This document shows, piece after piece, positions 38,369 to 54,341 of a stretch of DNA of 54,425 nucleotides (positions are counted from its first letter, which is position 1; each line of letters starts with the position of its first letter). A program made the position numbers and the translations under genes. The DNA comes from Bacteroidales bacterium (GTDB lineage Bacteria; Bacteroidota; Bacteroidia; Bacteroidales; UBA932): NCBI GenBank assembly GCA_017399865.1, contig JAFQAT010000001.1:1-54425 (forward strand). The letters run 5' to 3'. The notes under the pieces were generated by a model. The model was not told where the DNA came from. It saw only the letters and a list, made by a program, of their open reading frames with translations, and made no database searches.

Positions 38369-38372
38369 ATTC

Positions 38373-41300
38373 CTAGAATGTTAATGTCATACCTGCCGTA
38401 ACTGTCCTCATCGCCGAGTATGAGCCGCTGTTAAGTCCTGATCCGGAAGTGAGCGAGCCCAGTCCCATCGAATAACGGGGGTCCACTCCCTTGCGGGCGG
38501 AGATTACTGCCAGATTGTCTCCCGCCACATATATGCGCAGACTTTCTATCTGCATCATAGAGGTGACTTTTTCCGGAAGAGTGTATCCGAGAGTTATGTT
38601 GTTTATGCTGAGGTAGTTCGAGCTTATGAGGTAATTGCTGACTGCTGTCTGCCCGACGCTGGTGTCTCCGTCCAGACGTGGAATGGAGGATGATGGATTG
38701 TCCGGACTCCAGGCCTTCAGAGCATCCTTGTGCCATGCCGTTCCGGCTGACGACGAAGTGTGCATCAGCGCCTGGTATGTTCCGTCATAGTATTTTCCTC
38801 CGAGCTGGAAGGAGAATTGTGCGGAAAAGTCGAATCCATAGGCCTTCAGGGCTGTTCCGAATCCTCCGTAGACATCAGGAAGGACAGAGCCGAGTTCATA
38901 CTGCGATGCTTCGGAGAACACTTCTGTGATTGTGGATTCTCCTGTCCATTCTCCTTCTTTGTCCAGAGTCTTGACATACCATTGCGCCTTTCCGTTCTCC
39001 TGGTTGACACCGGCGTATTTGCGCATGTAGGCTTCATACAGGGAACCTCCGACCTTATATATATAGTTGCCTCCCATTATGCCCTTGTCTGAAACCGAAG
39101 GGTCGAGAGCCGTGATCCGGTTGCGGTAGTGGCTGAGGTTCAGATTCCATGTCCAGAGAAGTTCGTTCCTGTTCATGATGATTCCGTCAAAGGCAAATTC
39201 GAAACCGTTGTTCACGATGGATCCCACATTTACAGGGTAGTATCCGGTAGGATTGCCTGACGAAAGAGGTACGTCCTTGCTATATAGAAGATCGATGGTC
39301 TTTCTGGAGAAATACTCCATGCTTCCGCTGAGGAGCCCTGAAAGAATCTCGAAATCCACGCCGATGTTGAAGGAGTGCGATGACTCCCAGGTGAGGGCGC
39401 TGTTGCCCTTGTATGCGAGTTCTGTAGAGTATTCTCCGCTTTCCTCATTGTATGAATGGGTGTAGTTGTCGGAATACGGATAATACTTCCTGGCATAGTT
39501 GGATGAAGGATACAGATTGTCGTTGCCCTGCACTCCGTAGCTTGCCTTTACCTTCAGCATGTCCAACCACCAGGCACCTTCCATGAACCATTCAGAACTT
39601 GCCAGCCATGCGGCTCCGATGCTTCCGAAGTTACCCCATCTGTGCCCTGGCGCAAAACGTGAAGAACCGTCACGGCGGTATGATGCACTGGCGAAATAGC
39701 GGTTGTCATATTCATATTGCGCCCTTGCGAGGAATCCTTGCGTCATGTAGTCTGCAGTATATGATGAAAGCTGCTTCGAACTGCTTCCGTCAGCGTTGCC
39801 CAGCTCCCCGATGTACGGATCGAAAAGCCTGTCGTTCTGTCCTTCGAAGAACTGCTCCTTGAGCTTGTATACTTCATATCCGGCAAGAACGTTCAATGTG
39901 TGTAGGCTGCCGTAGAAGTCCGTCTTGTATTCGGCCAGGTACTGGCTGTTCACGGCAAATGTCCTGTCATGGCTTACATATGCCAGACCGTCGGTCGAAC
40001 TCTGTGAGCCGAATCTGCTGTATAGGGCATTGTATCGTGTGTTGGCATTTGTAAGTCCGACGTTGGCTGTGAGTGACAGCCCTCTGAAAGGAGTCAGGAC
40101 AATGCCCCATTTGCCCGTTATGAAATCAGTGTAGCTCTGCCTGCGGTTGACTTCGTTGTCACGTACGGCATTGCCTACGAACGAAGGACGTATGAAGTTT
40201 GTCTGGTTCGCGTCATATACCTTCATTCCGTTTTCGTACATGATGGCTCCTCCAGCATCCCTGACATAAAGAGGATATATCGGTCCCATCATGTTGGTGA
40301 CATAGAACACGTTTCCTGATGACCCGTATGTGCTTGAATATGAGGCTGTCTTTGAGTCAGAATGTGCGTAGCTCATGCTCGTGCTTATCTTCATCCATGG
40401 CTTTGCCTGCCAGTCTACGTTCATGCGGGCGGTGTATCTTTGGAAATCGGAATTGTTCACGATACCTCCGTCATTGAGATAGCCCACGCTTCCGTAGTAG
40501 CTGAGTCTGTCCCTGCCGCCGCTGACAGACAGATTGTACTCCTGCCTGAAGGAGCTGTGGAAGGTGTCGCCATACCAGTCATCAGGGATATAGAAGTATT
40601 CCCCGTCGGAATATCCGAGCGTCGCTTTAGGGTTGAGGCGGAAATCCTTGCCTATGAATCTTTCCCCGGCAGGAACTGTGAAGACCTGATATCCGAGTCC
40701 TCCGTTGTTCTGGTCGAAGAGGTTTGCATCGGCATATGCATATGCTTCTTCAGGAGTCTTGCCTGCATAGATCTGCGAGTTGTACATCATCCTGTAGTGG
40801 GTCTCGTAATACTGCGCGGGGTCTGAGATTATGTCATACTGCGGTATCAGGCGCGAGTTCGATCCCCATTTTGCATCGAATCTGATCTTTGCCGGAGTGC
40901 TTCCTGATGCCCTCTTGGTCGTTATGAGGACTACTCCGTTGGCTCCGCGTGCTCCGTAGATGGCCGAGGCTGCTGCATCCTTCAGTACTGACATCGACTC
41001 AACGTCGCTTGGGTTGATGTCCGAGATTGATCCGTCAAACGGCATTCCGTCCACTATATAGAGAGGTGAGTTGCTGGCGCTCATGGAGCCGATTCCGCGG
41101 ATGCGGATCGCGGCTCCACCGCCAGCAGGATCTCCTGAAGATGAAATGACCTGCACACCGGGAGTCGTACCTGCCAATGCGCTGGTCACATTCGTGCTTA
41201 CGCGCGATTCGATGGTCTGTGCATCCACCATCGATGCCGATCCTGTGAAGGAACTCTTCGTTGCAGTTCCATACGCTATCACAATCGTTTCTTCCAGACT

Positions 41301-41597
41301 TTCAGTGTCCGGCTCCAGGGCGGCGTTCAGTATCGTTCTTCCGTCAATCGGGGACTCCATCGTCTTGTATCCTATAGATGAGAATACCAGGATCCCGTCC
41401 CCGGGGACGGTGATCGTAAACTCTCCCTCCGCGTCTGTGCTTACTCCGGTCATGGTCCCTTCCAGATGGACGGACGCATACGGAACCGGTTCATTTGTAG
41501 ATGCATCCGTTACCCTTCCCTTAACCGTCAGGGACCCTTCCTGGGCGGATGCCACGATTGCCGTCAAGGCAGTCAGAAGCGTCAAAATGCTTTTCAT
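38373..41597 (-). CDS. SusC/RagA TonB-dependent outer membrane transporter (locus 1)
   Basis: 1074 residues. Signal peptide (MKSILTLLTALTAIVASAQE), an N-terminal carboxypeptidase-regulatory-like beta domain (GRVTDASTNEPVPYASVHLE), TonB-box region ETIVIAYGTATKSSFTG, plug domain with GTTPGVQVISSSGDPAGGGA and the SusC signature GARGANGVVLITTKRAS, then a 22-strand barrel ending in aromatic TVTAGMTLTF. It moves ligand held by its SusD across the outer membrane using TonB energy. Forms a two-gene operon with the SusD gene. Its upstream region lacks the boxes found around the recombinase. Confidence 0.94.
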   Translation of the reverse strand: MKSILTLLTALTAIVASAQEGSLTVKGRVTDASTNEPVPYASVHLEGTMTGVSTDAEGEFTITVPGDGILVFSSIGYKTMESPIDGRTILNAALEPDTESLEETIVIAYGTATKSSFTGSASMVDAQTIESRVSTNVTSALAGTTPGVQVISSSGDPAGGGAAIRIRGIGSMSASNSPLYIVDGMPFDGSISDINPSDVESMSVLKDAAASAIYGARGANGVVLITTKRASGSTPAKIRFDAKWGSNSRLIPQYDIISDPAQYYETHYRMMYNSQIYAGKTPEEAYAYADANLFDQNNGGLGYQVFTVPAGERFIGKDFRLNPKATLGYSDGEYFYIPDDWYGDTFHSSFRQEYNLSVSGGRDRLSYYGSVGYLNDGGIVNNSDFQRYTARMNVDWQAKPWMKISTSMSYAHSDSKTASYSSTYGSSGNVFYVTNMMGPIYPLYVRDAGGAIMYENGMKVYDANQTNFIRPSFVGNAVRDNEVNRRQSYTDFITGKWGIVLTPFRGLSLTANVGLTNANTRYNALYSRFGSQSSTDGLAYVSHDRTFAVNSQYLAEYKTDFYGSLHTLNVLAGYEVYKLKEQFFEGQNDRLFDPYIGELGNADGSSSKQLSSYTADYMTQGFLARAQYEYDNRYFASASYRRDGSSRFAPGHRWGNFGSIGAAWLASSEWFMEGAWWLDMLKVKASYGVQGNDNLYPSSNYARKYYPYSDNYTHSYNEESGEYSTELAYKGNSALTWESSHSFNIGVDFEILSGLLSGSMEYFSRKTIDLLYSKDVPLSSGNPTGYYPVNVGSIVNNGFEFAFDGIIMNRNELLWTWNLNLSHYRNRITALDPSVSDKGIMGGNYIYKVGGSLYEAYMRKYAGVNQENGKAQWYVKTLDKEGEWTGESTITEVFSEASQYELGSVLPDVYGGFGTALKAYGFDFSAQFSFQLGGKYYDGTYQALMHTSSSAGTAWHKDALKAWSPDNPSSSIPRLDGDTSVGQTAVSNYLISSNYLSINNITLGYTLPEKVTSMMQIESLRIYVAGDNLAVISARKGVDPRYSMGLGSLTSGSGLNSGSYSAMRTVTAGMTLTF

Positions 41598-41723: not shown

Positions 41724-43001
41724 TCAGTTATCGAAAGGATAAGTAATCTGTGCTGCAAACAATGTCATTGAGTGAGCCTCGTTTCCAACTTCAGTCATAG
41801 TGATCTGAGTAGGGTTCTTCTTGTCGTCAGCAGTCAGCTTGAATGTCCTTGCCTTGTCATATCCGAATGGACGGAGTGCATAATGGAATCCGGCATTGTT
41901 GTGATACCATACACCATTACCTGCTCCTGCCATTGCAAACTGCAGAGTTATTATGTCTTCACCCTGGAGCGCATAATTGAAATTCAAAGATCCGCCATAT
42001 CCGCTGCTTACGAACTGGAATCCGAAGTTGCCAGGATAGAGCATGCTTCCTATAAATGCGTACTGCAGTTCTTCTCCCAGAGCATCCTCATACTGCTTTA
42101 CATAGTCGAAGTAGAATTTTCCTTCTGCGCTCAACGTACTGTACTTGATGAACCAGTTACCAAGAACGAACATCTCGTTGAGAGGTGGGATGATCTGGAT
42201 GACAGTCACCTTGCCGTCTTCTGTCGCAAGTGTGCCGTTTTCAGCGTTGAATACGAGCTTTGTATACTCTGTACCCTTGATTTCAACTGGAGTATAGAAG
42301 TCCACGCCTTCCGGAGTGTAGCAGAATGATGCAGTACCTGTTACGGCTGTCGTGTCCTCTGGAGTGTATACATTGTATTCGAATTCAAATACGTTTCCGC
42401 TGATCGAGCATGCTGTGGTGTCCGAGTCCATGATCATTCTGTATGCTGGTGCTCCCATAGCCGCTTCCACAGCGTTGATCTTGTTCATATAATCTACAGG
42501 GTCGCCGGAGAACTTTACCAAAGTGTAGTTGTTGTCTGTTCTCTTGCCTTTCATGTAGACCTCTGTAGCATCCGGATTCTTACCGACGATGCGGAACTCG
42601 TAGTCTCCATGAAGAGCCTCATAGTTGCTGATGTCCGGAGTGGCGAAGAAATGGATGTTCTCATTGTAAGTGTCAAAGGTGATTACCGGACCGTCATCCG
42701 GAGTCATCTTGTAAAGGCTGGATACCGGCGTGGCTATGTCATCGTCAAGCTGGAAATATGCTGTCACTGAATCAGCAGTGAACTTCAGCACATAAGTGTA
42801 TCCCCCGTATGACTGTTTTTCTTCTGGGAAGTACTGGAGAAGCCACCCTTCCTCGGCTGAGGCAAGGAGGGTCCTGTACTCATCAAGATAAGCCTCCATT
42901 CTTTCCGCAGGAGTCTTGTCAAAGAGCTCCTTCTCTTCCATGAGACATGACGTGACAGTCATGCCCAGGACAGCAAGCAGGATTAAATATATCTTTCTCA
43001 T
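41724..43001 (-). CDS. DUF4302 domain lipoprotein
   Basis: 425 residues. Lipobox in MTVTSCLMEEKELFDKTPAE; the FDKTPAERMxAxLxEYRxLLASAEEGWLLQYFPE opening (quoted in part) is the DUF4302 start, followed by many beta strands (GYTYVLKFTADSVTAYFQLD, YEFRIVGKNPDATEVYMKGK). Exported, probably on the outer membrane, function unknown. In Bacteroidetes it usually occurs with a SusC/SusD pair and an HExxH lipoprotein, as here, so it is likely an accessory subunit of the importer. Last gene of the four-gene operon. Confidence 0.88.
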   Translation of the reverse strand: MRKIYLILLAVLGMTVTSCLMEEKELFDKTPAERMEAYLDEYRTLLASAEEGWLLQYFPEEKQSYGGYTYVLKFTADSVTAYFQLDDDIATPVSSLYKMTPDDGPVITFDTYNENIHFFATPDISNYEALHGDYEFRIVGKNPDATEVYMKGKRTDNNYTLVKFSGDPVDYMNKINAVEAAMGAPAYRMIMDSDTTACSISGNVFEFEYNVYTPEDTTAVTGTASFCYTPEGVDFYTPVEIKGTEYTKLVFNAENGTLATEDGKVTVIQIIPPLNEMFVLGNWFIKYSTLSAEGKFYFDYVKQYEDALGEELQYAFIGSMLYPGNFGFQFVSSGYGGSLNFNYALQGEDIITLQFAMAGAGNGVWYHNNAGFHYALRPFGYDKARTFKLTADDKKNPTQITMTEVGNEAHSMTLFAAQITYPFDN

Positions 43002-43016
43002 AATAAGTCTCCTTTT

Positions 43017-43892
43017 TTAGTTAAGCGTTTCCAAATCAAGGGTGTCGATTTCGCCCTGACGTCTCTGGATCACGTCCCTGAGTTCGTTGAGGTCGATATT
43101 CCATGAGTTGAGCATGTAGTTGTATGCTATGTCGAACTTTGCGCTGATGATTGCAGCGCCAGCTCCGGCATTTGCAAGTACGTTTTCCCAATACTCTGCA
43201 GGATTTGTCACATATATTGAAATCAGTTCCACAAAATCCTCGTTGACTTCAGATGAAGCGTATTCGCTGATGAAGCCGTGCTTCTGTGCGTCTGCATCGC
43301 CGTTCCATGTGCTGCTCCATGCGTCAGTAACGTATTCTGAACCGGAGATGGCGTTGAAGTCGCTTGAATATGGCTTTGTCTGGTGAAGTATGTGCGCGAA
43401 CTCATGGTGCATGGTCTTGAAGTAGTATTCGTTGAGATAGTCTACGTCAATGATCATGTCATTCACGAAATACATTGTGATCTTAAGACCGCCTTCTGCC
43501 GTACCAAGAACGAATGTGCCGTTGTTGCGGTATGCTCCCGAACCCACAAGATGAATCATCTTCGGATAGTAGGACTTGATGAACTCCTTGCTTCCGGTGA
43601 TTTCGTCGTATGGCTCGAAACAGAGGAATTTCATAAGTTTCGCCATCTTGATGGCATTCTCGTACTTTGCAGGAACAAGCCAGTAGTTGAAGTCCGACTC
43701 GTTCTTTTCCATACGGTACTTGAACATGATGTTGTATGGCTCGATGTAGTTGGTTACGAGCCATCTGTCAAATTCATTTTCCTCGACCTGTGAGTCGATG
43801 ACCTGACTCTCCGGATTCAGAGGCTGTTCCTCGCAGGCGATGAATGATACTGCTGCCACCGCCATTGCTATATATTTCAAAAACTTTGTCAT
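43017..43892 (-). CDS. SusCD-associated zinc metallohydrolase lipoprotein (HExxH)
   Basis: 291 residues from the ATG at 43892, which gives a lipoprotein signal (MTKFLKYIAMAVAAVSFIAC). The zinc site is KTMHHEFAHILHQTKPY, with HEFAH as HExxH; ASSEVNEDFVELISIYVTNP holds a likely third ligand Glu. Matches the group described as substrate import-associated zinc metallohydrolase lipoproteins. It probably trims peptides or a related polymer next to the SusCD importer encoded just upstream. Activity is inferred from the motif. Confidence 0.87.
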   Translation of the reverse strand: MTKFLKYIAMAVAAVSFIACEEQPLNPESQVIDSQVEENEFDRWLVTNYIEPYNIMFKYRMEKNESDFNYWLVPAKYENAIKMAKLMKFLCFEPYDEITGSKEFIKSYYPKMIHLVGSGAYRNNGTFVLGTAEGGLKITMYFVNDMIIDVDYLNEYYFKTMHHEFAHILHQTKPYSSDFNAISGSEYVTDAWSSTWNGDADAQKHGFISEYASSEVNEDFVELISIYVTNPAEYWENVLANAGAGAAIISAKFDIAYNYMLNSWNIDLNELRDVIQRRQGEIDTLDLETLN

Positions 43893-43921
43893 GATGTTTC
43901 CGATTTTTAATGGGTCCGTCA

Positions 43922-45526
43922 TTACCTAGGGTTTGGAGTCATGCCGGCTGTGATGACGTCCTTAGGAAGCTGAAGAGCTCGTCTTTCATCGTCCACGGTG
44001 AGCCTGTCGTAGGTCTCGAGAACCTCAAGGGTGGTTCCCAGCTTTCGTCTGGTGATCTCGATTCCGTAACGCTTGACGTCGAACCATCTCATTCCCATCA
44101 TATAGAACTCTGCACGTCTCATGTAAAGGATTGCGTGTACATATGCTTCCATGTCGCTTCCTTCAGAGAAATCTGCTACGAGCGGATTAAGTTTCTTCTT
44201 CGGAGTCGGTGCAGTGTCTGTATAGTATTCCATTCCGTTTACCCAGTCCTTGATGATCTGGTCTGTGAGCACAGGATCGCAATAGTCGGGATTGAGCGTA
44301 TTCACGGTCCAGAGGTTCATGTCGGCAAGGGCAAGGTCGTACTGCTCCTTCATGATGTATGCCTCTGCTCTGTTAAGAAGAGCCTCCTCCGCTGTAAGGG
44401 CCGCATATATGGTGCGGTAGTATCCGATTCCTGCAACAGGGTCAGTGTATTCGAACAGATAGTTCAGACGTGGGAGGATGGTCTTGTCAAATCCTGTCGC
44501 CACATATACGTAATGGTCGAGCTTGTACATTTTCCTGTAGTTGTAGCTCGAAGTAGAAGGTGCAAGTCCTCCCCAAGGCGCGAGGTTGAACATCTCTGTC
44601 TGCATCAGCATGTTGCCGGCTGAAATCCTTGACTCGAAATAGTATGGTCCGAAAATGAGACCAAGAGAAGAGTAGGCAGTCTGGAGAAGGAAGTTGTTCT
44701 TTGCGTTGGTGCTGTTGTACTGCGGACCGACGACATCAAGTTCCTTAGGATAACTTGTCAGTGTCGCATAATCTCTGAGGAGTTCTGCAGGAGCTGAACC
44801 GAGTGCCTTGTTTGCACACTCGATACACTTGTCCCATTTACCATAGAACAGATAGAAACGTGATGCGAATGTGTAGGCTGCTTTCTCATTGAAGTGGTAT
44901 TTCGGCACGCTGTATCCTGCATCATTGACCAAAGGAAGTCCTTCCTCAAGATCTTTCTCAATCGCAGCATAGACCTCTGCAACCGTGCCTCTGTCGTACT
45001 TCGGGTTGAGTTCTGTTTCCGGCTTGTCCATGTAAGGGATGCCGAGGTCTGTCGAGGCGGTTGCCGGGTCATAGGCCTTGCAGAAGAGGCTTGCGAGCAT
45101 GAAATGATTGTATGCTCTCGCAAGGAGCGCTTCTCCGCGTGACGCTTTCAGCGCCGGAGTGTCAGCACCGAGTTCATCAATCGCTACAAGTGCCTGGTTT
45201 GCGTTGGTGATTGCTCCGTAGAGTGCACCCCAGACCTCTTTCGGATCTTCATTGTCTGTCTCAGTGACTTCGTCCCACTGATAGACCTGAGTGTATAATC
45301 TGTTGCTGTATGGAGAATCTTCTCCGAAGTCATCGACATTGTCGGAAGAGAGCTCGGAAAGCATGATGTATGCGTTTTCCGGATATGCGCTTACAAGAAG
45401 CTTCTCCACCTTCTCTTCGGTGTCGATCTCTGCGCGGTTGTCCGGCATGACGTCCAGCCATTCATTGCAGGAAGTCAGTGCAAAGGCGAGCGACAGCGTT
45501 AAAAGGGTTATATTCTTCATTTTCAT
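43922..45526 (-). CDS. SusD/RagB family lipoprotein (left operon, locus 2)
   Basis: 534 residues. Lipoprotein signal LLTLSLAFALTSCNEWLDVM with the usual SusD continuation DVMPDNRAEIDTEEKVEKLL. Then ITNANQALVAIDELG, RGEALLARAYNHFMLASLFC and TDLGIPYMDKPETELNPKYD, and a C-terminal EALLNRAEAYIMKEQYDLAL and RAEFYMMGMRWFDVKRYGIE. It is the surface ligand-binding partner of the SusC encoded 20 bp upstream. With the HExxH and DUF4302 lipoproteins it makes up a four-part import complex; a peptide ligand would fit but is not proven. Confidence 0.93.
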   Translation of the reverse strand: MKMKNITLLTLSLAFALTSCNEWLDVMPDNRAEIDTEEKVEKLLVSAYPENAYIMLSELSSDNVDDFGEDSPYSNRLYTQVYQWDEVTETDNEDPKEVWGALYGAITNANQALVAIDELGADTPALKASRGEALLARAYNHFMLASLFCKAYDPATASTDLGIPYMDKPETELNPKYDRGTVAEVYAAIEKDLEEGLPLVNDAGYSVPKYHFNEKAAYTFASRFYLFYGKWDKCIECANKALGSAPAELLRDYATLTSYPKELDVVGPQYNSTNAKNNFLLQTAYSSLGLIFGPYYFESRISAGNMLMQTEMFNLAPWGGLAPSTSSYNYRKMYKLDHYVYVATGFDKTILPRLNYLFEYTDPVAGIGYYRTIYAALTAEEALLNRAEAYIMKEQYDLALADMNLWTVNTLNPDYCDPVLTDQIIKDWVNGMEYYTDTAPTPKKKLNPLVADFSEGSDMEAYVHAILYMRRAEFYMMGMRWFDVKRYGIEITRRKLGTTLEVLETYDRLTVDDERRALQLPKDVITAGMTPNPR

Positions 45527-45546: not shown

Positions 45547-48500
45547 TTACAGACCAAGTCTCAATGTTACTGTGAACTGCTTAGGGAGCGGAGTCGCCAC
45601 ACCACCGGTGTTGAAGAACTCAGGATCCTGTCCGTTGAGTTTCTTGTCGGCATAAAGAAGTGCGAGATTTGTTCCCTGTACCTTTACAGAAAGTGAATTC
45701 ATCTTCAAAGCCTTTACCCACTTCTTCGGGAAGTCGTAGCTGAGAGACACTTCCTTGAGTCGGATGAAGTCTCCCTTTGCGATGCGCTCAGAAGAAAAGT
45801 TGTAAGCATTGTATGCATAAGACAGATAACTGTCATTGTAAGTCTGCATCCTTGATGCAATGACAGGAATGGTCGTTACATTTTCGTCTCCAGGCACCAC
45901 CCATCTGTTCTTGAACTCCTTAGGCATTGACGAAAGATCGCTGTATGAACTTGAGAAAACTGGGTCCATGCGTACTACGTTGCCGAACGAGTATGTGAAG
46001 AAGATGTTGAGTTTCAAACCCTTGTACTGGAATGTGTTGCCGAATGAACCGAAGTCTGTAGGGTCAGCAGTTCCTGAATACTCGAGGAAATCGATCTTGT
46101 CACGTTCCTGGAAATAGATGCCTGTAGTAGTTACGTTTCCATCCTGATCAAGGAAGGTCGGGAGACCTTGTTCGTTCAGTCCCTTGAAAGGAATTGAGAA
46201 CACGGAACGTACCGGGTATCCTTCGAGTGCGAATCCGGTACCAGCAACGAGGTCTATCACCCTCTGCTGGTTCTCGAGGCTTGTAACTTCATTCTCGGCA
46301 TGTGAGTAAATGAAGTCGGTGGTCCACTTGAAGTTCTTTGTGTCGATGTTCTTGGTAGAGATCGTGAGCTCTACACCTGAAGAACTCATGGATGCAACGT
46401 TACCGAACTTGATGACCTGACCACCGATACCCTGAGTCGTTACAGGACCTATGAGATCGTAGTTGTCACGCTTGTACCAGTCAGCTTCAATATTGATTCT
46501 GTTGTCGAAGAATCCTATTGCACCGCCGATGTTGAGCTCATGCTTCTTCTCATATGTAAGTGCGGCGTTTTCAAGGTCTGAGACGTAGAGGGCAGATTCA
46601 CCGTCACCTGCGTTCGGACGCCAAGGGTTTGTTGCGTTGATCACGACTCGTGAGTTGGTTACGCTTGCCGGACCGCGGTCTGCTGTAAGCGAGTAGGAAG
46701 CCTTGAGCGAGAGGAATGAAAGATAAGGCCATGCCCCCTTCATCCACTCTTCCTCATGTACGTTCCATGCACCTGAAACGTTCCAGGTAGGAAGCCAGCG
46801 CGCAGAGGTTGTCTTGCCAAGCTTGTTTGTACCCTCGTAACGTACGGTTCCGTTGACTGTATAACGTCCTTTATATGAATATGTGCCGTTCGCGAAGAAT
46901 GCTACGCTTCTCATGAGTGAGTTTGCCATGGTGTAGTACTGGGTGTTCTCTTCCGCACCTTTCTTGAATACTTCATAGGCATATCTTGCGATTTCTCCCA
47001 TAGAATACTGCATGCCCCAGCCGCGGAACCAGGTCTGCTGACGCTGAACCTGATTGAGTTCCATACCTCCGAAGAAGTTGGTGATGTGCCCTCCATTGAA
47101 CTCCTTGTTATATTGTGCGGTCGCACGGAAATCGTATGAGAGCATCTTGAAGTCGGTCCTTTCATATATACCTCCATCCGGCAGCACTGTGATAGGAACA
47201 GCATAAGGGTTGTCCGGGTCGGTATAAAGGAACGGGTTGTTGTCACGGATGGTGGTTGTCGGCATGGCGCGGTATGCCATCGCCTGGTTGGAGTAGTCCG
47301 TGATTGTGTGCTGCTGTGCTGAAGATGAGTACTTCACGGCACCGAGTGCTGAAAGTTCAAGTCCTGTAACCGGCTTGAGCTTGAATTCACCCTGGAACTT
47401 GAGGTCGACTACGTCAAAGTCCATATAGTTGTTCTCAAGTTCATGAAGGATGTTGAAGTCTGCATAGTTCCTCTTGTAGTATGCGGTAGGATCCAGCACT
47501 CTTGAAGTGTTGAGGGCGTATGAATAAGGGTTGATGTCGAAGTCACGCTTTACTTCGCCGCTGACAACGTCCACATCTGATGAAAGTGTTCCCGGAGCTC
47601 TCTGCTGGCGGTAAGAAGCACTGGAGATCATGTTGAATGAAAGCTTCTTGAAGATGTTGTAGTTGGCGTTGAAGTTGGCTGTATAACGGTTCACATTGCT
47701 CTGCCTTGCCCAACCCGGATCCACCATGGCACTGATCGATGCATAGTACTGCGACTTCTCGTTTCCGGACGACATGCTGACCGAGTGGTTATGCTGAAGT
47801 GCGTTGCTGAAGAGCATGTCGAACCAATCGGTGTTGCGGTATTCGGCCTGGCGGAGGAATGCGTTGCGTGCAGCCTCTGTATTGGCAAGGGTACCTGCAG
47901 TTATCATGTTGTACATCTCGCCGTAGATACCGCTCTCACTTGAGTTAGGAACTGCAGAATAGTTGAGCCATCCTTTCTGCTCAAGTTCGCGGTAGATGCT
48001 CATCTGCTCCTGTGAGTTCATGATGTTGAAGTTTCTGTATGAAGGCTTCAGACGTGTCGTGAACTCTCCTGTGTAACTGATTCTGCTGCGGCCTGCAGCA
48101 CCTTTCTTGGTGGTTACTACGATCACACCGGCCATGGCGCGGGCTCCATAGATAGATGTCGCCGATCCGTCTTTGAGGATCTGGAAACTCTCGATGTCGT
48201 CTGCATTGAGGCCTGCGATTGCAGAACTGATGAGGGTGGTTGCGTCTCCGGACGACAGCTGGTCGGCGTCAACTTCGACCACGTCCTCCATGATCACACC
48301 ATCTACAACCCAAAGAGGCTTCGAGCTTCCGTAGATAGAAGTGGCACCGCGGACGCGGATCTTAGGAGCTGTACCGAATGAACCGGATACATTCTGTACC
48401 GATACTCCGGAGGCTCTTCCTTCAAGGGCGCGGCTGATTTCCGGCATACCGTCCACCCTTGCTTTCTCTCCGTCCACCTTTGCTGTCGATCCTGTGAACA

Positions 48501-48846
48501 GACGTTTGTCCATTTTTTGCATACCGGTAACGACTACACCTTCCAGCATTTCGGAATCCGGTCTCATGGTAACCTGGAGATAAGGTCTGACAGCCACCTC
48601 CACTGTTTCCATGCCGAGGCATGAGAATACCACAACCTTTGCATCTGATGGTACCTCAAACTCGAACTTACCGTCAACATCGGTAATTGCGCCTCCATCT
48701 GTTACACCTTTTACAGTGACATATGCTCCGATGACGGGCTGGCCGTCGACTTCGGATGTCACGATACCGGACACTTTATTCTGGGCCAGCAGCGAACCTG
48801 CACCCAGAACAAGGGAGGCAAAAAGCAGCATCAAGTTTTTTTTCAT
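45547..48846 (-). CDS. SusC/RagA TonB-dependent transporter (left arm of the recombinase switch)
   Basis: 1099 residues. Signal peptide MKKNLMLLFASLVLGAGSLL, carboxypeptidase-regulatory-like domain (SGIVTSEVDGQPVIGAYVTV), TonB-box region EGVVVTGMQKMDKRLFTG, plug (EGRASGVSVQNVSGSFGTAP, GSATSIYGARAMAGVIVVTT) and barrel ending FTVTLRLGL. It heads the leftward operon with SusD, the HExxH metallohydrolase and DUF4302. Its ATG lies 18 bp from a 20-bp block that is repeated, inverted, 18 bp before the divergent SusC at 49864, and a serine recombinase lies in between. Expression is therefore likely to be phase variable. Confidence 0.94.
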   Translation of the reverse strand: MKKNLMLLFASLVLGAGSLLAQNKVSGIVTSEVDGQPVIGAYVTVKGVTDGGAITDVDGKFEFEVPSDAKVVVFSCLGMETVEVAVRPYLQVTMRPDSEMLEGVVVTGMQKMDKRLFTGSTAKVDGEKARVDGMPEISRALEGRASGVSVQNVSGSFGTAPKIRVRGATSIYGSSKPLWVVDGVIMEDVVEVDADQLSSGDATTLISSAIAGLNADDIESFQILKDGSATSIYGARAMAGVIVVTTKKGAAGRSRISYTGEFTTRLKPSYRNFNIMNSQEQMSIYRELEQKGWLNYSAVPNSSESGIYGEMYNMITAGTLANTEAARNAFLRQAEYRNTDWFDMLFSNALQHNHSVSMSSGNEKSQYYASISAMVDPGWARQSNVNRYTANFNANYNIFKKLSFNMISSASYRQQRAPGTLSSDVDVVSGEVKRDFDINPYSYALNTSRVLDPTAYYKRNYADFNILHELENNYMDFDVVDLKFQGEFKLKPVTGLELSALGAVKYSSSAQQHTITDYSNQAMAYRAMPTTTIRDNNPFLYTDPDNPYAVPITVLPDGGIYERTDFKMLSYDFRATAQYNKEFNGGHITNFFGGMELNQVQRQQTWFRGWGMQYSMGEIARYAYEVFKKGAEENTQYYTMANSLMRSVAFFANGTYSYKGRYTVNGTVRYEGTNKLGKTTSARWLPTWNVSGAWNVHEEEWMKGAWPYLSFLSLKASYSLTADRGPASVTNSRVVINATNPWRPNAGDGESALYVSDLENAALTYEKKHELNIGGAIGFFDNRINIEADWYKRDNYDLIGPVTTQGIGGQVIKFGNVASMSSSGVELTISTKNIDTKNFKWTTDFIYSHAENEVTSLENQQRVIDLVAGTGFALEGYPVRSVFSIPFKGLNEQGLPTFLDQDGNVTTTGIYFQERDKIDFLEYSGTADPTDFGSFGNTFQYKGLKLNIFFTYSFGNVVRMDPVFSSSYSDLSSMPKEFKNRWVVPGDENVTTIPVIASRMQTYNDSYLSYAYNAYNFSSERIAKGDFIRLKEVSLSYDFPKKWVKALKMNSLSVKVQGTNLALLYADKKLNGQDPEFFNTGGVATPLPKQFTVTLRLGL

Positions 48847-48864
48847 AGATTCTGACTTTTTATT

Positions 48865-48884
48865 AGTTAAACATAAATATTGAT
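48865..48884 (+). repeat. Box 3, left copy (20-bp inverted repeat)
   Basis: AGTTAAACATAAATATTGAT; identical in reverse complement to 49826-49845. Read towards the left susC it contains TATGTTTA, a near match to the -7 consensus. Confidence 0.9.
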
Positions 48885-48890
48885 CAGCTA

Positions 48891-48901
48891 TACACTACAC
48901 T
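48891..48901 (+). repeat. Box 2, left copy (11-bp inverted repeat)
   Basis: TACACTACACT; inverted copy at 49805-49815. Gap to Box 3 is 6 bp here and 10 bp on the right. Confidence 0.8.
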
Positions 48902-48916
48902 GAATAGTCTGACTTT

Positions 48917-48932
48917 TAATCGGGCGTTTTAT
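48917..48932 (+). repeat. Box 1, left copy (16-bp inverted repeat)
   Basis: TAATCGGGCGTTTTAT; inverted copy at 49770-49785. Nothing beyond this block is shared between the two sides, so it marks the inner limit of the symmetry and is one candidate crossover site. Confidence 0.85.
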
Positions 48933-48967
48933 TGTGCGTATTATTGTGAAACTTAAATAATATTAAC

Positions 48968-49579
48968 ATGTCAGTGTATGCTTATATCAGAGTCAGTACG
49001 GAAATGCAATGTCATGCAAGTCAGAAGCACGAAATCAAGGTCTATTGTGAAAAACGCGGATTGATTGTAGACAAATGGGTATCGGAATCCGTGTCCGGAA
49101 CAGTAGCTCCCGAGAAAAGACTGCTGGGCAAGAGTATAAGGAAAATGAAGAAAGGGGATCTTCTGATCTGTACGGAATTATCCCGGCTGGGGCGCAGCAT
49201 GCTCATGATTATGGGCATACTGAACAGATGCTCTCAAAAGGGCATCTCCATACAGACTATAAAGGATAATTTTACCCTTACGGATAACATAAATTCAAAG
49301 ATCATAGCTTTCGCCTTTGCCCTCGCGGCAGAAATTGAAAGAAACCTTATATCTCAGAGGACCAAAGAGGCTCTGGCTGTCAAGCGTCTGGAGGGAGTGA
49401 GGCTTGGAAGACCGCCGGGAAGTTCCAGAAAGAAAGTTACATTTATAAAGGAATTTGGTACTGTGTCAATGATGCTGGCCAATGGCATGACTGTGTCTCA
49501 AATAGCTAAACAATATGGTATTCATCGCAATACCATGCGAAAATATCTGGATGAAATGCAGAAAATTAAAGATAAATGA
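48968..49579 (+). CDS. Serine site-specific recombinase (Hin/Mpi-type DNA invertase)
   Basis: 203 residues. The N-terminal resolvase domain begins YAYIRVSTEMQ, with catalytic Ser10 and Arg8, and includes ELSRLGRSMLMIM with the conserved Arg pair. A long helix AFALAAEIERNLISQRTKEAL follows, then LGRPPGS and a C-terminal helix-turn-helix (MTVSQIAKQYGIHRNTMRKY). Size and order match small DNA invertases rather than large integrases or IS607-type enzymes. It is the only gene in the interval between two divergent SusCD operons and lies inside three nested inverted repeats, so its probable job is to flip this segment. GC is lower than in neighbouring genes. Confidence 0.92.
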   Translation: MSVYAYIRVSTEMQCHASQKHEIKVYCEKRGLIVDKWVSESVSGTVAPEKRLLGKSIRKMKKGDLLICTELSRLGRSMLMIMGILNRCSQKGISIQTIKDNFTLTDNINSKIIAFAFALAAEIERNLISQRTKEALAVKRLEGVRLGRPPGSSRKKVTFIKEFGTVSMMLANGMTVSQIAKQYGIHRNTMRKYLDEMQKIKDK

Positions 49580-49769
49580 AAATTTAATAAAAATTATGAA
49601 TTGCAAGATTAGAGCGATAGTTGCTTACAAATTGTAAGTGGTGCCACAAAAGTCTTCGCAAATTTTCTGCGAAACCGCCCAAAATCTTCATAATTCCCTA
49701 ATATTCCAACGTTTGAAGATGTTTGGATATTAAAAAAATGTTAACGAACTTTGTAGGAAATCGTGCTAT
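49580..49769. other. AT-rich spacer between recombinase and right-hand boxes
   Basis: 190 bp without a credible ORF. It contains two small palindromes: CTTACAAATTGTAAG (about 49624-49638) and TTCGCA-AATTTTC-TGCGAA (about 49654-49672). No canonical TAnnTTTG promoter was seen. It could hold recombinase or accessory-protein sites, or simply be the recombinase trailer. Confidence 0.5.
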
Positions 49770-49785
49770 ATAAAACGCCCGATTA
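49770..49785 (-). repeat. Box 1, right copy
   Basis: ATAAAACGCCCGATTA, the inverted copy of 48917-48932. Confidence 0.85.
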
Positions 49786-49804
49786 TTAGTGCATGAAATT
49801 ACAA

Positions 49805-49815
49805 AGTGTAGTGTA
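49805..49815 (-). repeat. Box 2, right copy
   Basis: AGTGTAGTGTA, the inverted copy of 48891-48901. It ends exactly 19 bp before TATGTTTA of Box 3, the normal -33 to -7 spacing in this phylum; on the left the gap is 15 bp. Confidence 0.8.
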
Positions 49816-49825
49816 CTACAAAGTA

Positions 49826-49845
49826 ATCAATATTTATGTTTAACT
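49826..49845 (-). repeat. Box 3, right copy with putative -7 element
   Basis: ATCAATATTTATGTTTAACT, the inverted copy of 48865-48884. TATGTTTA at 49835-49842 is one base from TAnnTTTG and would give a leader of about 16 nt to the ATG at 49864. Confidence 0.85.
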
Positions 49846-49863
49846 TTTTTACCGAGCTTATGT

Positions 49864-52800
49864 ATGAGTAGAAAATTATTCACAATCGCCCTGTGCTTCT
49901 TGATGAGCATAGGCGCAGCTCTCGCTCAGAACACAGTATCCGGAACTGTAAAGGATGCTGAAACTGGCGAACCGGTAGTTAGTGCGGCCGTACAGCTTAA
50001 AGGCAGCACAGGTGTTTACGCAATGACAGACGATGCGGGTAGCTTCATTATCGAAGTTCCTGTAAACGGTGTCCTTGTAGTAAGCAGTCTCGGTTATCAT
50101 TCAGCCGAAGTCAATGTTGGCGGAAACACCAATGTAGTGATTTCACTCGAGTCTGACAAGCACATGCTTGATGACGTTGTGGTGGTCGCATACGGTACCG
50201 TCCGCAGAGAGGCTGCAACCGGAAGTGTTACATCTGTCAAGAACGAGCAGCTTGCTTCTGTTCCTGCAACTTCAGTGGACAAGATGCTTGCAGGTAAGAT
50301 GGCCGGTGTGACTATCACATCAGGATCTGGACAGCCAGGTTCGACATCAACAATCCGCGTGCGCGGTATCTCGTCAATCAACGCAGGCAACGAGCCTCTT
50401 TGGGTTGTCGATGGTATTCCAGTTATGTCGAGCGACTTCCGTCAGCTTTCAAACGCTGGTGTCGGCGGCGGTTCATCATCTACCTTCCTTAACCCTAACG
50501 ACATCGAATCAATCACAGTCCTCAAGGATGCGGCTGCGGCTTCAGTCTATGGTTCGCGTGCTGCAAACGGTGTCATCCTCGTTACCACAAAGAGCGGTAA
50601 GGCAGGAAAGGCACGTTTCACTGCCAGGGCGAAATTCGGTGCCCAGCAGCTTATCAACGACAAGAACTGGCGTCCTCTTACAGGATCCGAGCTGATCGAC
50701 TATAAGAGAGTTGCTGCAATCAATGCAGGTCATGACCCTCTCGATCCTACAGACCAGTACTATACTCCAGACACTCTTCTTGAGAACGGTGTTACAAACT
50801 GGTACAAGGAACTCACAAAGATCGGATCTCTTCAGGAGTACGAAGTTAACGCAACTGGCGGTACAAACAAGGCATCTTACTATGCTTCAGCCGCTTACCA
50901 TAGCAATGAAGGTGTGTTCCATGGCATCAGCTACGACCGCTTCTCTGCACGTGTGAACAGCGACTTCCAGCTTCTCAAGTCTCTCAAGAGCGGTGCAAGG
51001 TTCAACCTCAGCTACGCAGACTCTAACTCAGGCCAGATGGGTGACCTTTATTACTCAAACCCTCAGTACGCGATGTTCTCTATCCTTCCTTGGACTCCTT
51101 TCAAGAATCCTGACGGAAGCTTCAACGTGAACATCCCTGAGAACTCAGACACAAACCCTGCAGCAGACGCGTACTACGATACCTATAACGATAAGGACTA
51201 TCGTCTCCAGGGAAGCATCTATCTCGAGTGGAGCCCTATCAAGCAGCTCACATTCAAGACCACCAACGCTCTCGAGTTCGTATACGTGGACTCTAAGCAG
51301 TACTGGTCAGCAGAGACAAACAAGGGTACAGCCACCCTCTTCAAATACTGGTCAAAGGACCTCCGTTACACCACTTCAAACACAGTGACTTACGACGACA
51401 AGTTCGGAGCACACTCGGTAAGGGTACTCGCAGGACAGGAGGCAATGGTCGACACTTACGACTATCTCGGCGGTTACTCACCTAACGTAAACCCTCTCAT
51501 TCCTTTCCCTAACACATCTACTCCTGAGGCCGATGAGGTTTCTTACAGCCTTTCAGACGAGTCAATGGTTTCAGTATTCGGTGTGGCTGACTACAACTTC
51601 GACAACAAGTACTACTTCCAGGGTTCTGTACGTGCTGACGGATCATCCCTCTTCGGTGCAGCTAACAGATGGGGTATCTTCTGGTCAGTGGGTGGTTCAT
51701 GGAACATCACCAAGGAGAACTGGATGGCGTCTACAAGAGACTGGCTCAGCCTCGCGAAGCTCAGAGCATCATACGGTGTGAACGGTAACAACAACATCGC
51801 CGCTTACCGTGCGTATGGTATCTACTCTACAATGACTTACGGCTCATATGTGGGTATGGTTCCTTCACGTCCTGAGAATCCAAACCTCTCATGGGAAAAG
51901 AACAGGACCGTGAACTTCGGTCTCGACCTCGGATTCTTCGACGACAGACTCACAGCTAGCGTAGACGTTTACCAGCGTAAGACTGAAGACATGCTCCTCA
52001 GCAAGAGAGTTCCTTATACCACAGGTTTCGGCTCTAACTTCGTGAATATCGGAGCCATCATGAACCGCGGTCTTGAGCTCCAGCTTGAGGGAATCCTCGT
52101 CAACACAAGCGATGTACAGTGGACAGCAGGTTTCAACATTGCATTCAACCGTTCTAAGGTCCTCGACCTCGCAGACAGCGAATACCTCAGCGTAGGTGAT
52201 GGTCGTGCTTCAAGCAATACAGGTACTCCTGTAAGAATCGTAAAGGACAAGAGCCTCTATACATTCTATCTCCGTGACTGGTACGGCGTGAACCCTTCAA
52301 ACGGTGATCCTCTCTGGTATGACAATGATGGCAACCTTACAAGCGACGTTACAAAGGCTCGCTACATCTACACAGGTTCTCCAGAGCCTAAGGCAACAGG
52401 TGGTTTCAACACAAGCTTCACATGGAAGGGTCTTACCCTCTCTGCATTCTTCGAGTTTGTATATGGAAACAACGTGTTCATGGCTTCGCAGTTTGACCTT
52501 GACGGTTATGACATGACCGGAAACACTACTACCTACTCTCTCGGATACTGGGAGAAGCCAGGTGATACAGGTGTTCATCCAAAGCCTGTAGCAGGTAACC
52601 CTAAGCGTCCTTATTCTAACTCTACAAGATACCTCCAGGACGGAAGCTATATGAGAATCAAGGATGTGTCGCTTTCATATGCATTCCCTGAAAAGGTTCT
52701 CAAGGCTATCAAGATGCAGGGTCTCAGGGTTTATGTAAGTGCTTTGAATCCTTATACATTCCACAATGTGAAGGGCGTCATGGACCCAGAGCTTGGTACA

Positions 52801-52872
52801 CTCGGATACTCGATGGGTGCATCACACACAATGGTCAAGTCTTTCGTAGGCGGAATCGAAGTTTCATTCTAA
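49864..52872 (+). CDS. SusC/RagA TonB-dependent transporter (right arm of the recombinase switch)
   Basis: 1002 residues from the ATG at 49864, which yields a signal peptide (MSRKLFTIALCFLMSIGAAL, then AQ). A longer frame from 49789 crosses the repeats and lacks a signal at its start. Domains: carboxypeptidase-regulatory-like (SGTVKDAETGEPVVSAAVQL), TonB-box region VVVVAYGTVRREAATGSV, plug (KMAGVTITSGSGQPGSTSTI, SVYGSRAANGVILVTTKSG) and a barrel ending FVGGIEVSF. Codon choice is strongly biased, as in groEL, suggesting high expression. First gene of the rightward operon with SusD 14 bp downstream. Confidence 0.94.
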   Translation: MSRKLFTIALCFLMSIGAALAQNTVSGTVKDAETGEPVVSAAVQLKGSTGVYAMTDDAGSFIIEVPVNGVLVVSSLGYHSAEVNVGGNTNVVISLESDKHMLDDVVVVAYGTVRREAATGSVTSVKNEQLASVPATSVDKMLAGKMAGVTITSGSGQPGSTSTIRVRGISSINAGNEPLWVVDGIPVMSSDFRQLSNAGVGGGSSSTFLNPNDIESITVLKDAAAASVYGSRAANGVILVTTKSGKAGKARFTARAKFGAQQLINDKNWRPLTGSELIDYKRVAAINAGHDPLDPTDQYYTPDTLLENGVTNWYKELTKIGSLQEYEVNATGGTNKASYYASAAYHSNEGVFHGISYDRFSARVNSDFQLLKSLKSGARFNLSYADSNSGQMGDLYYSNPQYAMFSILPWTPFKNPDGSFNVNIPENSDTNPAADAYYDTYNDKDYRLQGSIYLEWSPIKQLTFKTTNALEFVYVDSKQYWSAETNKGTATLFKYWSKDLRYTTSNTVTYDDKFGAHSVRVLAGQEAMVDTYDYLGGYSPNVNPLIPFPNTSTPEADEVSYSLSDESMVSVFGVADYNFDNKYYFQGSVRADGSSLFGAANRWGIFWSVGGSWNITKENWMASTRDWLSLAKLRASYGVNGNNNIAAYRAYGIYSTMTYGSYVGMVPSRPENPNLSWEKNRTVNFGLDLGFFDDRLTASVDVYQRKTEDMLLSKRVPYTTGFGSNFVNIGAIMNRGLELQLEGILVNTSDVQWTAGFNIAFNRSKVLDLADSEYLSVGDGRASSNTGTPVRIVKDKSLYTFYLRDWYGVNPSNGDPLWYDNDGNLTSDVTKARYIYTGSPEPKATGGFNTSFTWKGLTLSAFFEFVYGNNVFMASQFDLDGYDMTGNTTTYSLGYWEKPGDTGVHPKPVAGNPKRPYSNSTRYLQDGSYMRIKDVSLSYAFPEKVLKAIKMQGLRVYVSALNPYTFHNVKGVMDPELGTLGYSMGASHTMVKSFVGGIEVSF

Positions 52873-52886
52873 AGACGACATGAATT

Positions 52887-54341
52887 ATGAAGAAGATATT
52901 AGTATATATAGGAACTCTCGCTGCTACCATGGCGCTTTCAGGATGTGAAGACTTCCTGACAAGAGAGCCACAGCTCCAGCAGTCTACAGATATCACTTTG
53001 TCTACCTACAGCGGTCTTAATGATTCAACTCATGGCGCATATTACTACATCGCTTCTACAGGATGGTATGGCCAGAGCTGGGTTATCGACGCTGAAATGA
53101 GGTCAGGTAACGGTATGAAGTCTAATTTCGCTAACTCAAACCGTTGTACTCAGGCCTACAACTGGAACTACACTGAAGACGGTACTTCAGGAATGTGGTC
53201 TACAGCATACGTGACTATCGCAATGGCCAACAACGTCATCGACAATCTCGAAGGCAAGGCAGTAGGCGATATCACCGAGCAGGACCTCAACAATCTCAAG
53301 GCAGAGTGCCTTTTCATCAGAGCATTTGCTCACTTCTGCAACGTACTGACTTACGGACAGCCTTATACTTACTGTGTGGCTAACGACAAGGAAAGCCTCG
53401 GCGTGCCTTACGTATATCATACAGATCCTAACGGCAAGCCAGCACGCGAGACCGTCATTTCAAATTACGAGAACATCGTGAAGGACCTTCTCGAGGCAGA
53501 GAGCGTCATCGATCCTGAGTATGTCGCTACTTCAGTACGTCCTAGCCTCGTGGATGCAAATGCAGCTGTGAACATCTCTACTATCCAGGCTCTCCTTTCA
53601 AGAGTATACCTTTACATGGGTGAGTGGCAGAAGGCTGCTGACTATGCTACAAAGGTAATCGACAGCAAGAAGTACAAGATGTGGACAGCTGAGGAGTATC
53701 CTACCGTTTGGGGTAAGGAACTCGGAACAGGAGAGGTTATCTTCGAAGTTTACGGAAAGCGTACAAACAGCGCATACGGCAGCTGGGAGGACATCTCTTA
53801 TCTGACAAATCCAGGAGGTTCAGGTGACCCTCAGGCAGCTCAGCCGCTCATCGACCTTTACGCAGAAGGTGATGTACGTCTCGAGGTTTACAGAACTGAC
53901 GAGAAGGAAGAGTCTGGCATCCTATGGACTGCAAAGTATCCAGGAAAGGGCGACAACGCCGCTCCTGACTGCAACAACGTTGTGATCTTCCGTCTTTCAG
54001 AGATGTATCTCAACAGAGCAGAGGCTCTCATGCGTGGTGCAACTATCGAGGGTGCTACCGCAATTTCAGATATCAATGTGATCACTTCTAATCGTGGAGC
54101 TGCCCCTTATACTTCAGTAGGTCCTACAGATATCGAAGCTGAACGTCGCAAGGAACTTGCATGGGAAGGACATTACATCTATGACCTCGCACGTTGGAAC
54201 AAGCCTGTTGTACGTGCTGAGAAGGATTATCCTCTCCTTACAATGAACCTTGAGGTGCCGTTCCCTAGCACAAAGTGGGCTCTTCCTCTTCCAAAGAGCG
54301 AACTCGACGTAAATGAAAACCTTGTTCAGAACCCTAAATAG
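52887..54341 (+). CDS. SusD/RagB family lipoprotein (right operon, locus 3)
   Basis: 484 residues. Lipoprotein signal IGTLAATMALSGCEDFLTRE with the classic SusD run after the Cys. Then ITEQDLNNLKAECLFIRAFA, HFCNVLTYGQPYTYCVAND, ESLGVPYVYHT, and the C-terminal VIFRLSEMYLNRAEALMRGA and RRKELAWEGHYIYDLARWNK, all typical of SusD. Surface partner of the SusC encoded just upstream. The strong codon bias of that gene continues here. A further lipoprotein gene follows after 9 bp, so the operon runs past the window. Confidence 0.94.
   Translation: MKKILVYIGTLAATMALSGCEDFLTREPQLQQSTDITLSTYSGLNDSTHGAYYYIASTGWYGQSWVIDAEMRSGNGMKSNFANSNRCTQAYNWNYTEDGTSGMWSTAYVTIAMANNVIDNLEGKAVGDITEQDLNNLKAECLFIRAFAHFCNVLTYGQPYTYCVANDKESLGVPYVYHTDPNGKPARETVISNYENIVKDLLEAESVIDPEYVATSVRPSLVDANAAVNISTIQALLSRVYLYMGEWQKAADYATKVIDSKKYKMWTAEEYPTVWGKELGTGEVIFEVYGKRTNSAYGSWEDISYLTNPGGSGDPQAAQPLIDLYAEGDVRLEVYRTDEKEESGILWTAKYPGKGDNAAPDCNNVVIFRLSEMYLNRAEALMRGATIEGATAISDINVITSNRGAAPYTSVGPTDIEAERRKELAWEGHYIYDLARWNKPVVRAEKDYPLLTMNLEVPFPSTKWALPLPKSELDVNENLVQNPK

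Follow-up and report, generated by a model that had tools for sequence, protein, structure and literature searches.

A predicted serine-invertase switch that would connect one promoter to either of two SusC/SusD importer operons in Bacteroidales

Introduction

SusC/SusD importers are major nutrient uptake systems in gut Bacteroidota. In a contig of 54,425 nucleotides from a Bacteroidales bacterium (GCA_017399865.1, contig JAFQAT010000001.1), a lone serine invertase gene stands between two SusC/SusD operons that point away from it. This contig, hereafter the window, is the entire contig C5 of a 2.19-Mb assembly in 83 contigs (genome G000). An earlier note on this DNA had proposed that the gene belongs to a self-contained invertible switch with the invertase inside the flipped segment and an importer at each end. 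The locus thus raises the question of whether the invertase flips the DNA between the two operons and, if so, what flipping would do to them. We consider it very likely that the locus is a two-way selector switch, in which flipping connects one promoter to either of the two importer operons, rather than an on/off switch. The orientations of related loci, the point at which homology changes over, the matched cores of the crossover sites and a single predicted promoter all agree with the proposal of the earlier note.

Results

Matched putative crossover sites bound a segment with the invertase gene

The open reading frames and profile matches of the window bore out the gene order as first described, with the invertase alone between two diverging operons (Table 1). 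Three mirrored blocks had been reported around it and all three were found. Those of 20 bp and 11 bp are perfect repeats, as is the 16-bp block (48917-48932/49770-49785), which lies within a 21-bp repeat of 90% identity (48912-48932/49770-49790). Each 20-bp block does end 18 bp before a susC ATG; the two genes start at 48846 on the minus strand and at 49864 on the plus strand, the latter being an ATG internal to a longer open reading frame with a GTG start.

N-terminal catalytic Ser and Arg motifs are hallmarks of small serine recombinases. The invertase scored above the cut-off with both PF00239 and PF02796, and its best solved relatives were 4m6f, a DNA-invertase, and gamma-delta resolvase, with the RVST and RLGR stretches aligned. 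Its score with NF009949, the equivalog profile of the Mpi family, was 250.1 bits, under the cut-off of 272, which indicates at the level of sequence that it is a close relative of Mpi and not Mpi itself. The same genome encodes a second, distant serine recombinase (G000:C51:1921-2520, locus L031) with 28% identity.

Loci with relatives of the invertase, distant ones included, were chosen by invertase similarity to give a first set of 81 (the window plus 20 plus 60). In 45 of them a divergent susC flanks the invertase on each side, in 11 only a right susC was found, in 5 only a left one and in 20 none; many of the one-sided loci end at a contig edge. A recurrent site, AAACG-NN-CGTTT, was found on both sides of the invertase and extends to a 26-bp dyad with GTG toward susC (98 sites). 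The consensus of the 16-bp block scored at least 9/10 on 70 of the 90 flanking sides of the 45 loci, where mononucleotide shuffles expect 0.9, and in 1.01 Mb of locus sequence there were four matches outside the intergenic region, at three places with one matched on both strands. The crossover point is predicted to be the 16-bp block, within a Hin-like 26-bp site.

Serine invertases require equal cores to rejoin DNA. Among the 39 loci that could be scored, meaning those whose top site reached 8/10 or more on each side (6 of the 45 fell out with a score of 7 on one side), 38 had the same left and right core dinucleotide, and five core types were seen (CC, CT, AC, GA and TC). Permutation of the cores gave a mean of 9.9 matches and a maximum of 22 in 100,000, a count that is not a strict probability because the loci share ancestry. 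Each change of core type had to occur on both sides. Six both-flanked loci added later likewise had equal cores, as read from their listing. The sole mismatch is L145, whose invertase is also unique among the susC-flanked ones in falling outside the main group of the invertase tree described below. As in a Hin-type switch, the invertase gene and a predicted promoter lie within a segment bounded by inverted sites, and these are dyads of about 26 bp with equal 2-bp cores, at which cutting is predicted to occur. In two loci, L043 (G019:C29) and L113 (G371:C1), an insert of about 1 kb, containing additional coding sequence, lies between the invertase and the left crossover site.

One promoter is predicted, at the right end of the segment

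A predicted promoter with the TTTG / TAnnTTTG elements of Bacteroides invertible promoters is placed within the DNA to be flipped, downstream of the invertase stop codon and before the right-hand site. Its occurrence was counted on 65 right and 54 left sides having a susC and a site scoring at least 8. A promoter matching at 9/10 or better and ending 14-23 bp before the right site was present in 39 of the 65, compared to 0.87 expected from dinucleotide shuffles. No excess was detected inside the left site (3/54, 3.1 expected) or outside the sites (2/65 and 3/54, 2.8 and 2.2 expected). Since the promoter was found only at the right end of the segment, the two operons would share a single recognised promoter. 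In the window, 35 bp (48933-48967) separate the left 16-bp block from the start codon of the invertase; the promoter of the invertase itself should therefore overlap the left site or fall outside.

Both orientations occur at conserved chromosomal positions

The genome G021 encodes a SusC1 that is 96% identical to that of the window, but there the invertase turns its promoter side toward this gene, across a gap of 284 bp as in the window; this orientation is the reverse of the window's. The promoter side is likewise toward the SusC1-type arm in G269 and G147. In G021 and G269 the segment is reversed with respect to both the flank and the SusC1 arm, and in G147 with respect to the SusC1 arm.

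When the side of the invertase occupied by the same susC (at least 80% identity) was compared among loci, 23 pairs had it on the same side and 23 on opposite sides. This tally was rejected as sole support, since an arm can move with the orientation of the invertase kept, as in L127 and L132. The outer flanks were therefore fetched and flank-anchored pairs were counted, with Sus genes masked and a consistent flank match of at least 1 kb required. This gave 94 locus pairs, in which the invertase has the same orientation in 45 and the opposite one in 49. In pairs with both chromosomal flanks matched over at least 1 kb each, 17 were the same and 20 reversed, so the comparison of related genomes that the earlier note had proposed did find both orientations at conserved chromosomal positions. 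The loci formed four groups of orthologs with no inconsistent edge, and both orientations are represented in three of the groups (5 and 3, 2 and 2, 2 and 1); the smallest of these three (G063, G416 and G355) is the weakest, as the direct comparison of G063 with G355 is ambiguous. Among 24 cases of an arm shared at 60% amino acid identity or more, the flank was conserved in 19, of which 8 had a reversed invertase; raising the threshold to 80% left 11 cases, all with a conserved flank and 4 of them with a reversed invertase. As rpoB, sought as a yardstick, was not found in G000 and G021, flank DNA was used instead.

The change-over of homology falls at the crossover site. In the 35 bp inside the site, L038 (G021), L107 (G269) and L111 (G147) matched the right side of the window at 0.83, 0.74 and 0.59, respectively, versus 0.35, 0.63 and 0.52 for the left side. 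Outside the site, they matched the SusC1 leader at 0.77, 0.91 and 0.70 versus 0.61, 0.59 and 0.64 for the SusC2 leader. In L107, homology to the SusC1 arm ends at 48935, the edge of the left site.

We propose that the serine invertase would bind the two inverted 26-bp sites (48911-48936 and 49766-49791), cut at their common 2-bp core (CC/GG) and flip the 856-bp segment that carries its own gene and, at the right end, an outward promoter. In the assembled orientation the promoter would read across the right site into the susC2 leader, such that importer 2 would be on and importer 1 would be left without a recognised promoter. After a flip the promoter would enter the susC1 leader and the states of the two importers would be swapped. 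We infer that this strain has an active invertase, that the promoter is the sole one for both operons and that their expression is mutually exclusive; the same holds for the rate of flipping.

Several observations weigh against a selector switch of this kind. At the promoter, 26 of the 65 right sides have no 9/10 match at the expected place, and the -7 box of the window, GAACTTTG, is one letter off the consensus. No promoter of the invertase's own was recognised (4 of 46 loci, 3.5 expected). Regarding orientation, 28 more flank pairs, counted from the listing, were ambiguous and were left out of the tallies, and locus pairs are not independent of one another. Both orientations were seen between species, the genomes being one per species and the named ones almost all metagenome-assembled genomes (MAGs). 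The contrast at the junction in G147 is weak both inside (0.59 vs 0.52) and outside (0.70 vs 0.64), and the flank of G147 on the SusC1 side is partly rearranged and ambiguous with G000. Arms also move: an arm shared at 60% or more changed flank in 5 of the 24 flank-anchored cases, and in L127 and L132 (G189 and G180) the operon is on the other side while the invertase is unreversed and the outer flanks are in the same order. Central inversion is therefore not the sole rearrangement at these loci.

Leader elements and additional sites

The 20-bp block is, by its distribution, a susC leader element. Its inner 18-mer is present in 77 of 400 sampled genomes of the genus. The 30 loci returned for reading, a part of all listed box positions, hold 39 copies of it, and for 35 copies a susC frame starts no more than 20 bp downstream; L232, L238, L241 and L251 have it elsewhere than directly before such a frame. 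The invertase is absent within the locus (up to 3 kb, some cut by contig ends) in 16 of the 30, and in 12 of these 16 the 18-mer precedes a susC. In the window's own assembly, a search for the 20-mer with up to 3 mismatches returned one extra match, at an unrelated place and with 3 mismatches. The 20-bp block was rejected as a recombination boundary because the 18-mer precedes invertase-free susC genes and the change-over falls at the 16-bp block. Accordingly, of the two invertible spans offered in the earlier note, the one set by the 16-bp block (48917-49785) stands and the one set by the 20-bp block (48865-49845) does not.

It had further been argued that boxes found before many susC genes with no recombinase nearby would be plain regulator sites. 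This describes the 20-bp box. As for the 16-bp type, a crossover-site scan that covered 6 of the 16 invertase-free loci found strong sites in three, all less than 2 kb from a contig end. These three, L228 (G092:C15), L231 (G102:C9) and L233 (G222:C64), each have a susC with a strong site and leader, and neither promoter nor invertase in the locus; they may be OFF arms severed by contig ends, or distant targets. In another locus, L242 (G322:C36, about 1500-1650, minus strand), a promoter, a decayed site, a leader and a susC follow in the ON order with no invertase in the 3-kb locus, which by its sequence looks like a switch frozen ON.

Arms of this sort would be expected of a larger shufflon, with the invertase acting also on distant site-bearing susC arms and more than two importers connectable to the promoter. 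L228, L231 and L233 fit such an arrangement, as does L040 with its extra site at the far contig end. However, all four of these sites are less than 2 kb from a contig end and may therefore be halves of ordinary broken loci, and the out-of-place sites of L092 and L113 look like a left site displaced by insertion. In the window's own genome, moreover, a 17-letter site pattern, allowing 2 mismatches, matched the two sites and two weak places, and the reversed control also gave two. We regard a shufflon as unlikely and favor a selector with two targets.

Exchange of importer arms

We also considered whether the invertase is inactive or slow, with the differences in orientation between species arising from homologous recombination that swaps or flips whole arms. 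Exchange of arms is real. One arm is shared at 80% or more and the other at less than 60% in 26 pairs of both-flanked loci, compared to 1 pair in which both arms are shared. L203 differs from L205 and L206 by a whole arm: the invertase DNA is 99.7-99.8% identical and the right SusCs 97%, while the left SusCs are unrelated (28%) and the DNA match stops about 26 bp inside the left susC. The moved arm of L127 and L132 and the 5 of 24 that changed flank are of the same nature. Yet arms shared at 80% or more all stay on their flank as the center is reversed in 4 of 11, the change-over falls at the site, and the cores remain matched. This makes arm recombination a quite improbable source of the orientation differences, and inversion by the local invertase remains our reading of them. 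The arms themselves are probably replaced via homologous recombination over the shared leader and the region of the start codon and signal peptide. With such replacement over longer times, the switch would act as a fixed hub with exchangeable arms.

That the mirrored blocks do no more than provide two co-regulated susC genes with a common regulator or leader sequence, with the invertase incidental, agrees with the 20-bp block as found in 77 of 400 genomes and before susC in 12 of 16 invertase-free loci, but is scarcely tenable given the Hin-like dyad of the 16-bp block, with its locus-specific matched cores, and the reversal of orientation at conserved positions.

Distribution of the switch

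With 18 loci added from named genomes, the invertase was flanked on both sides in 51 of 99 loci. The genomes with relatives of the invertase are named mostly as Candidatus Cryptobacteroides or Bacteroidales. Most are MAGs; many come from ruminant samples and some from horses. By these names the window itself would belong to Candidatus Cryptobacteroides. Some relative (E 0.001 or better) occurs in 193 of 400 sampled genomes of the genus. In a tree of 97 invertases, from which two of the 99 loci were left out for a short invertase, one group of 73 contained 69 of the 70 invertases flanked by susC on one or both sides. The susC-flanked group is a cluster and not a proven clade because support for the split is low (0.33, with midpoint rooting). 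Viral contigs held two relatives, with 45% and 25% identity, and the best 5000 matching plasmid records were all below 60% identity to the invertase. Seven one-sided loci were judged not to be cut by a contig end; six of them (L092, L124, L134, L140, L142 and L225) keep susC on the promoter side and L116 is the exception.

The close group of invertases (E 1.3e-85 or better), 63 among the matches listed, was fetched in full with surroundings and examined for contig ends near the invertase, using rounded genome sizes and contig numbers. Contig ends within 400 bp were found in 8 of 63 versus 2.1 expected (P 0.0014). At other distances the counts were 3 versus 1.0 (200 bp), 10 versus 5.2 (1 kb) and 11 versus 7.8 (1.5 kb). 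This excess is weakly suggestive of a population of mixed orientation and would also fit any variable locus.

Gene content of the window

The profile matches confirmed the HExxH metallohydrolase and the DUF4302 protein as partners in the SusC1 arm. A further SusC/SusD pair (36746-41597) lies directly behind this arm in the same direction, and in G147 DNA related to it (68%) is found at the opposite side of the invertase.

Table 1. Coordinates of the predicted switch and its importer arms in the window.
Feature	Position	Strand	Evidence or remark
DUF4302 protein, SusC1 arm	41724..43001	-	PF14135 187.5 bits
HExxH zinc metallohydrolase lipoprotein, SusC1 arm	43017..43922	-	TIGR04549 337.4 bits; PF15890
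SusD1	43922..45526	-	PF14322, PF07980
SusC1, left importer, predicted OFF here	45547..48846	-	TIGR04056 620.5 bits
susC leader box, 20 bp, left arm, outside segment	48865..48884	-	Mirrored 20-bp block; inner 18-mer as in right arm
Leader element AGTGTAGTGTA, left arm	48891..48901	-	Mirrored block
Left crossover site, 26 bp (12+2+12), predicted	48911..48936	-	Core GG on + strand (CC toward susC1) at 48923-48924; mirrored 16-bp block; consensus and core agreement across loci
Invertible segment, core to core, 856 bp, predicted	48923..49779	.	Reversed in relatives G021, G269, G147
Mpi/Hin-type serine invertase, 203 aa, resolvase domain and helix-turn-helix, inside segment	48968..49579	+	PF00239 105 bits, PF02796 28.6 bits
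Predicted promoter, toward susC2	49722..49753	+	-33 TTTG 49722-49725, 20-bp spacer, -7 GAACTTTG 49746-49753; 9/10 match to TTTG / TAnnTTTG
Right crossover site, 26 bp, predicted	49766..49791	+	Core CC at 49778-49779; mirrored 16-bp block; consensus and core agreement across loci
Leader element AGTGTAGTGTA, right arm	49805..49815	+	Mirrored block; also in no-invertase locus L242
susC leader box, 20 bp, right arm, outside segment	49826..49845	+	Inner 18-mer upstream of susC with and without invertase
SusC2, right importer, predicted ON here	49864..52872	+	TIGR04056 804.1 bits
SusD2	52887..54341	+	PF14322, PF07980

Discussion

The mechanistic parents of this switch are Hin and Mpi. As in the Salmonella H segment, a serine invertase is associated with a promoter on a reversible segment between two sites. 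The hix sites of Hin consist of two half-sites around a 2-bp core. In passages of the literature, on which the comparisons here draw throughout, the Hin promoter is described on the reversible segment between hixL and hixR with an enhancer on the hin gene (PMC9368917, PMC3798978). This promoter drives a single operon, fljBA, and the FljA repressor silences the other flagellin (PMC9368917), unlike the present locus with one operon at each end of the segment. The window's invertase resembles Bacteroides fragilis Mpi in belonging by the NF009949 profile to the same recombinase family, yet its score is below the cut-off. The predicted promoter is of the TAnnTTTG type, the Bacteroides consensus (PMC4747536, PMC8748976), and repeats of B. 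fragilis have been termed similar to hin repeats (Patrick 2003, cited in PMC3090145). Whereas Mpi is reported to invert 13 regions (PMC4747536), here a single local invertase is paired with two sites next to it.

The predicted switch shares with the Tsr0667 shufflons of B. fragilis the use of DNA inversion to vary SusC/SusD importers. Tsr0667 is a tyrosine-type recombinase, and its shufflon recombines within the susC coding sequence. In contrast, the recombinase here is of the serine type and its sites lie before the genes, which places the locus outside that class. Tsr0667 has been described to carry out multiple shufflon-type inversions varying these importers (PMC4747536). The two-ended target resembles the S-layer switch of Campylobacter fetus. 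Inversion at the sap locus of C. fetus depends on RecA and uses homologous gene ends, and we know of no local serine invertase inside its segment. There, nested inversion is described to move a promoter near various S-layer genes (PMC2481393).

In human-gut Bacteroidales, a PhaseFinder survey described an invertase adjoining an invertible promoter with -33/-7 motifs (PMC8748976). An inverton group near TonB-receptor and SusD genes (PMC11892184) and invertible regions near susC/susD (PMC10939037) have also been noted. One regulated side is described in these passages for invertible promoters of gut Bacteroidales, whereas the present locus has two. Invertible regions containing or overlapping coding sequence were discarded in PMC8748976 according to the passage concerned; a segment with an invertase gene would therefore have been discarded there. 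We found no description of a self-contained serine-invertase segment with two importer operons and genus-wide recurrence among the top-ranked matches in open-licence PMC full text, a scope in which subscription papers are mostly not included, and this is weak evidence of novelty.

The combination of inversion and arm exchange at this locus invites a broader model, which we hold tentatively and rate as somewhat less probable than its opposite. It may be a two-socket hub spread across Candidatus Cryptobacteroides, in which quick inversion picks the importer, slow homologous exchange across the leader and start codon swaps importers from a genus-wide pool, and locus-specific 2-bp cores keep switches apart. 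If true, this would amount to two-speed, combinatorial variation of surface importers. The large natural set of invertases with differing crossover cores would be useful for studying the role of core identity in insulating switches. Because the orthologous loci are conserved, the switch can be tested from reads alone.

Surface receptors are targets of phages. A SusC epitope has also been described to elicit T-cell responses (PMC10939037). A compact A/B selector would let a cell line keep two importers while displaying one at a time.

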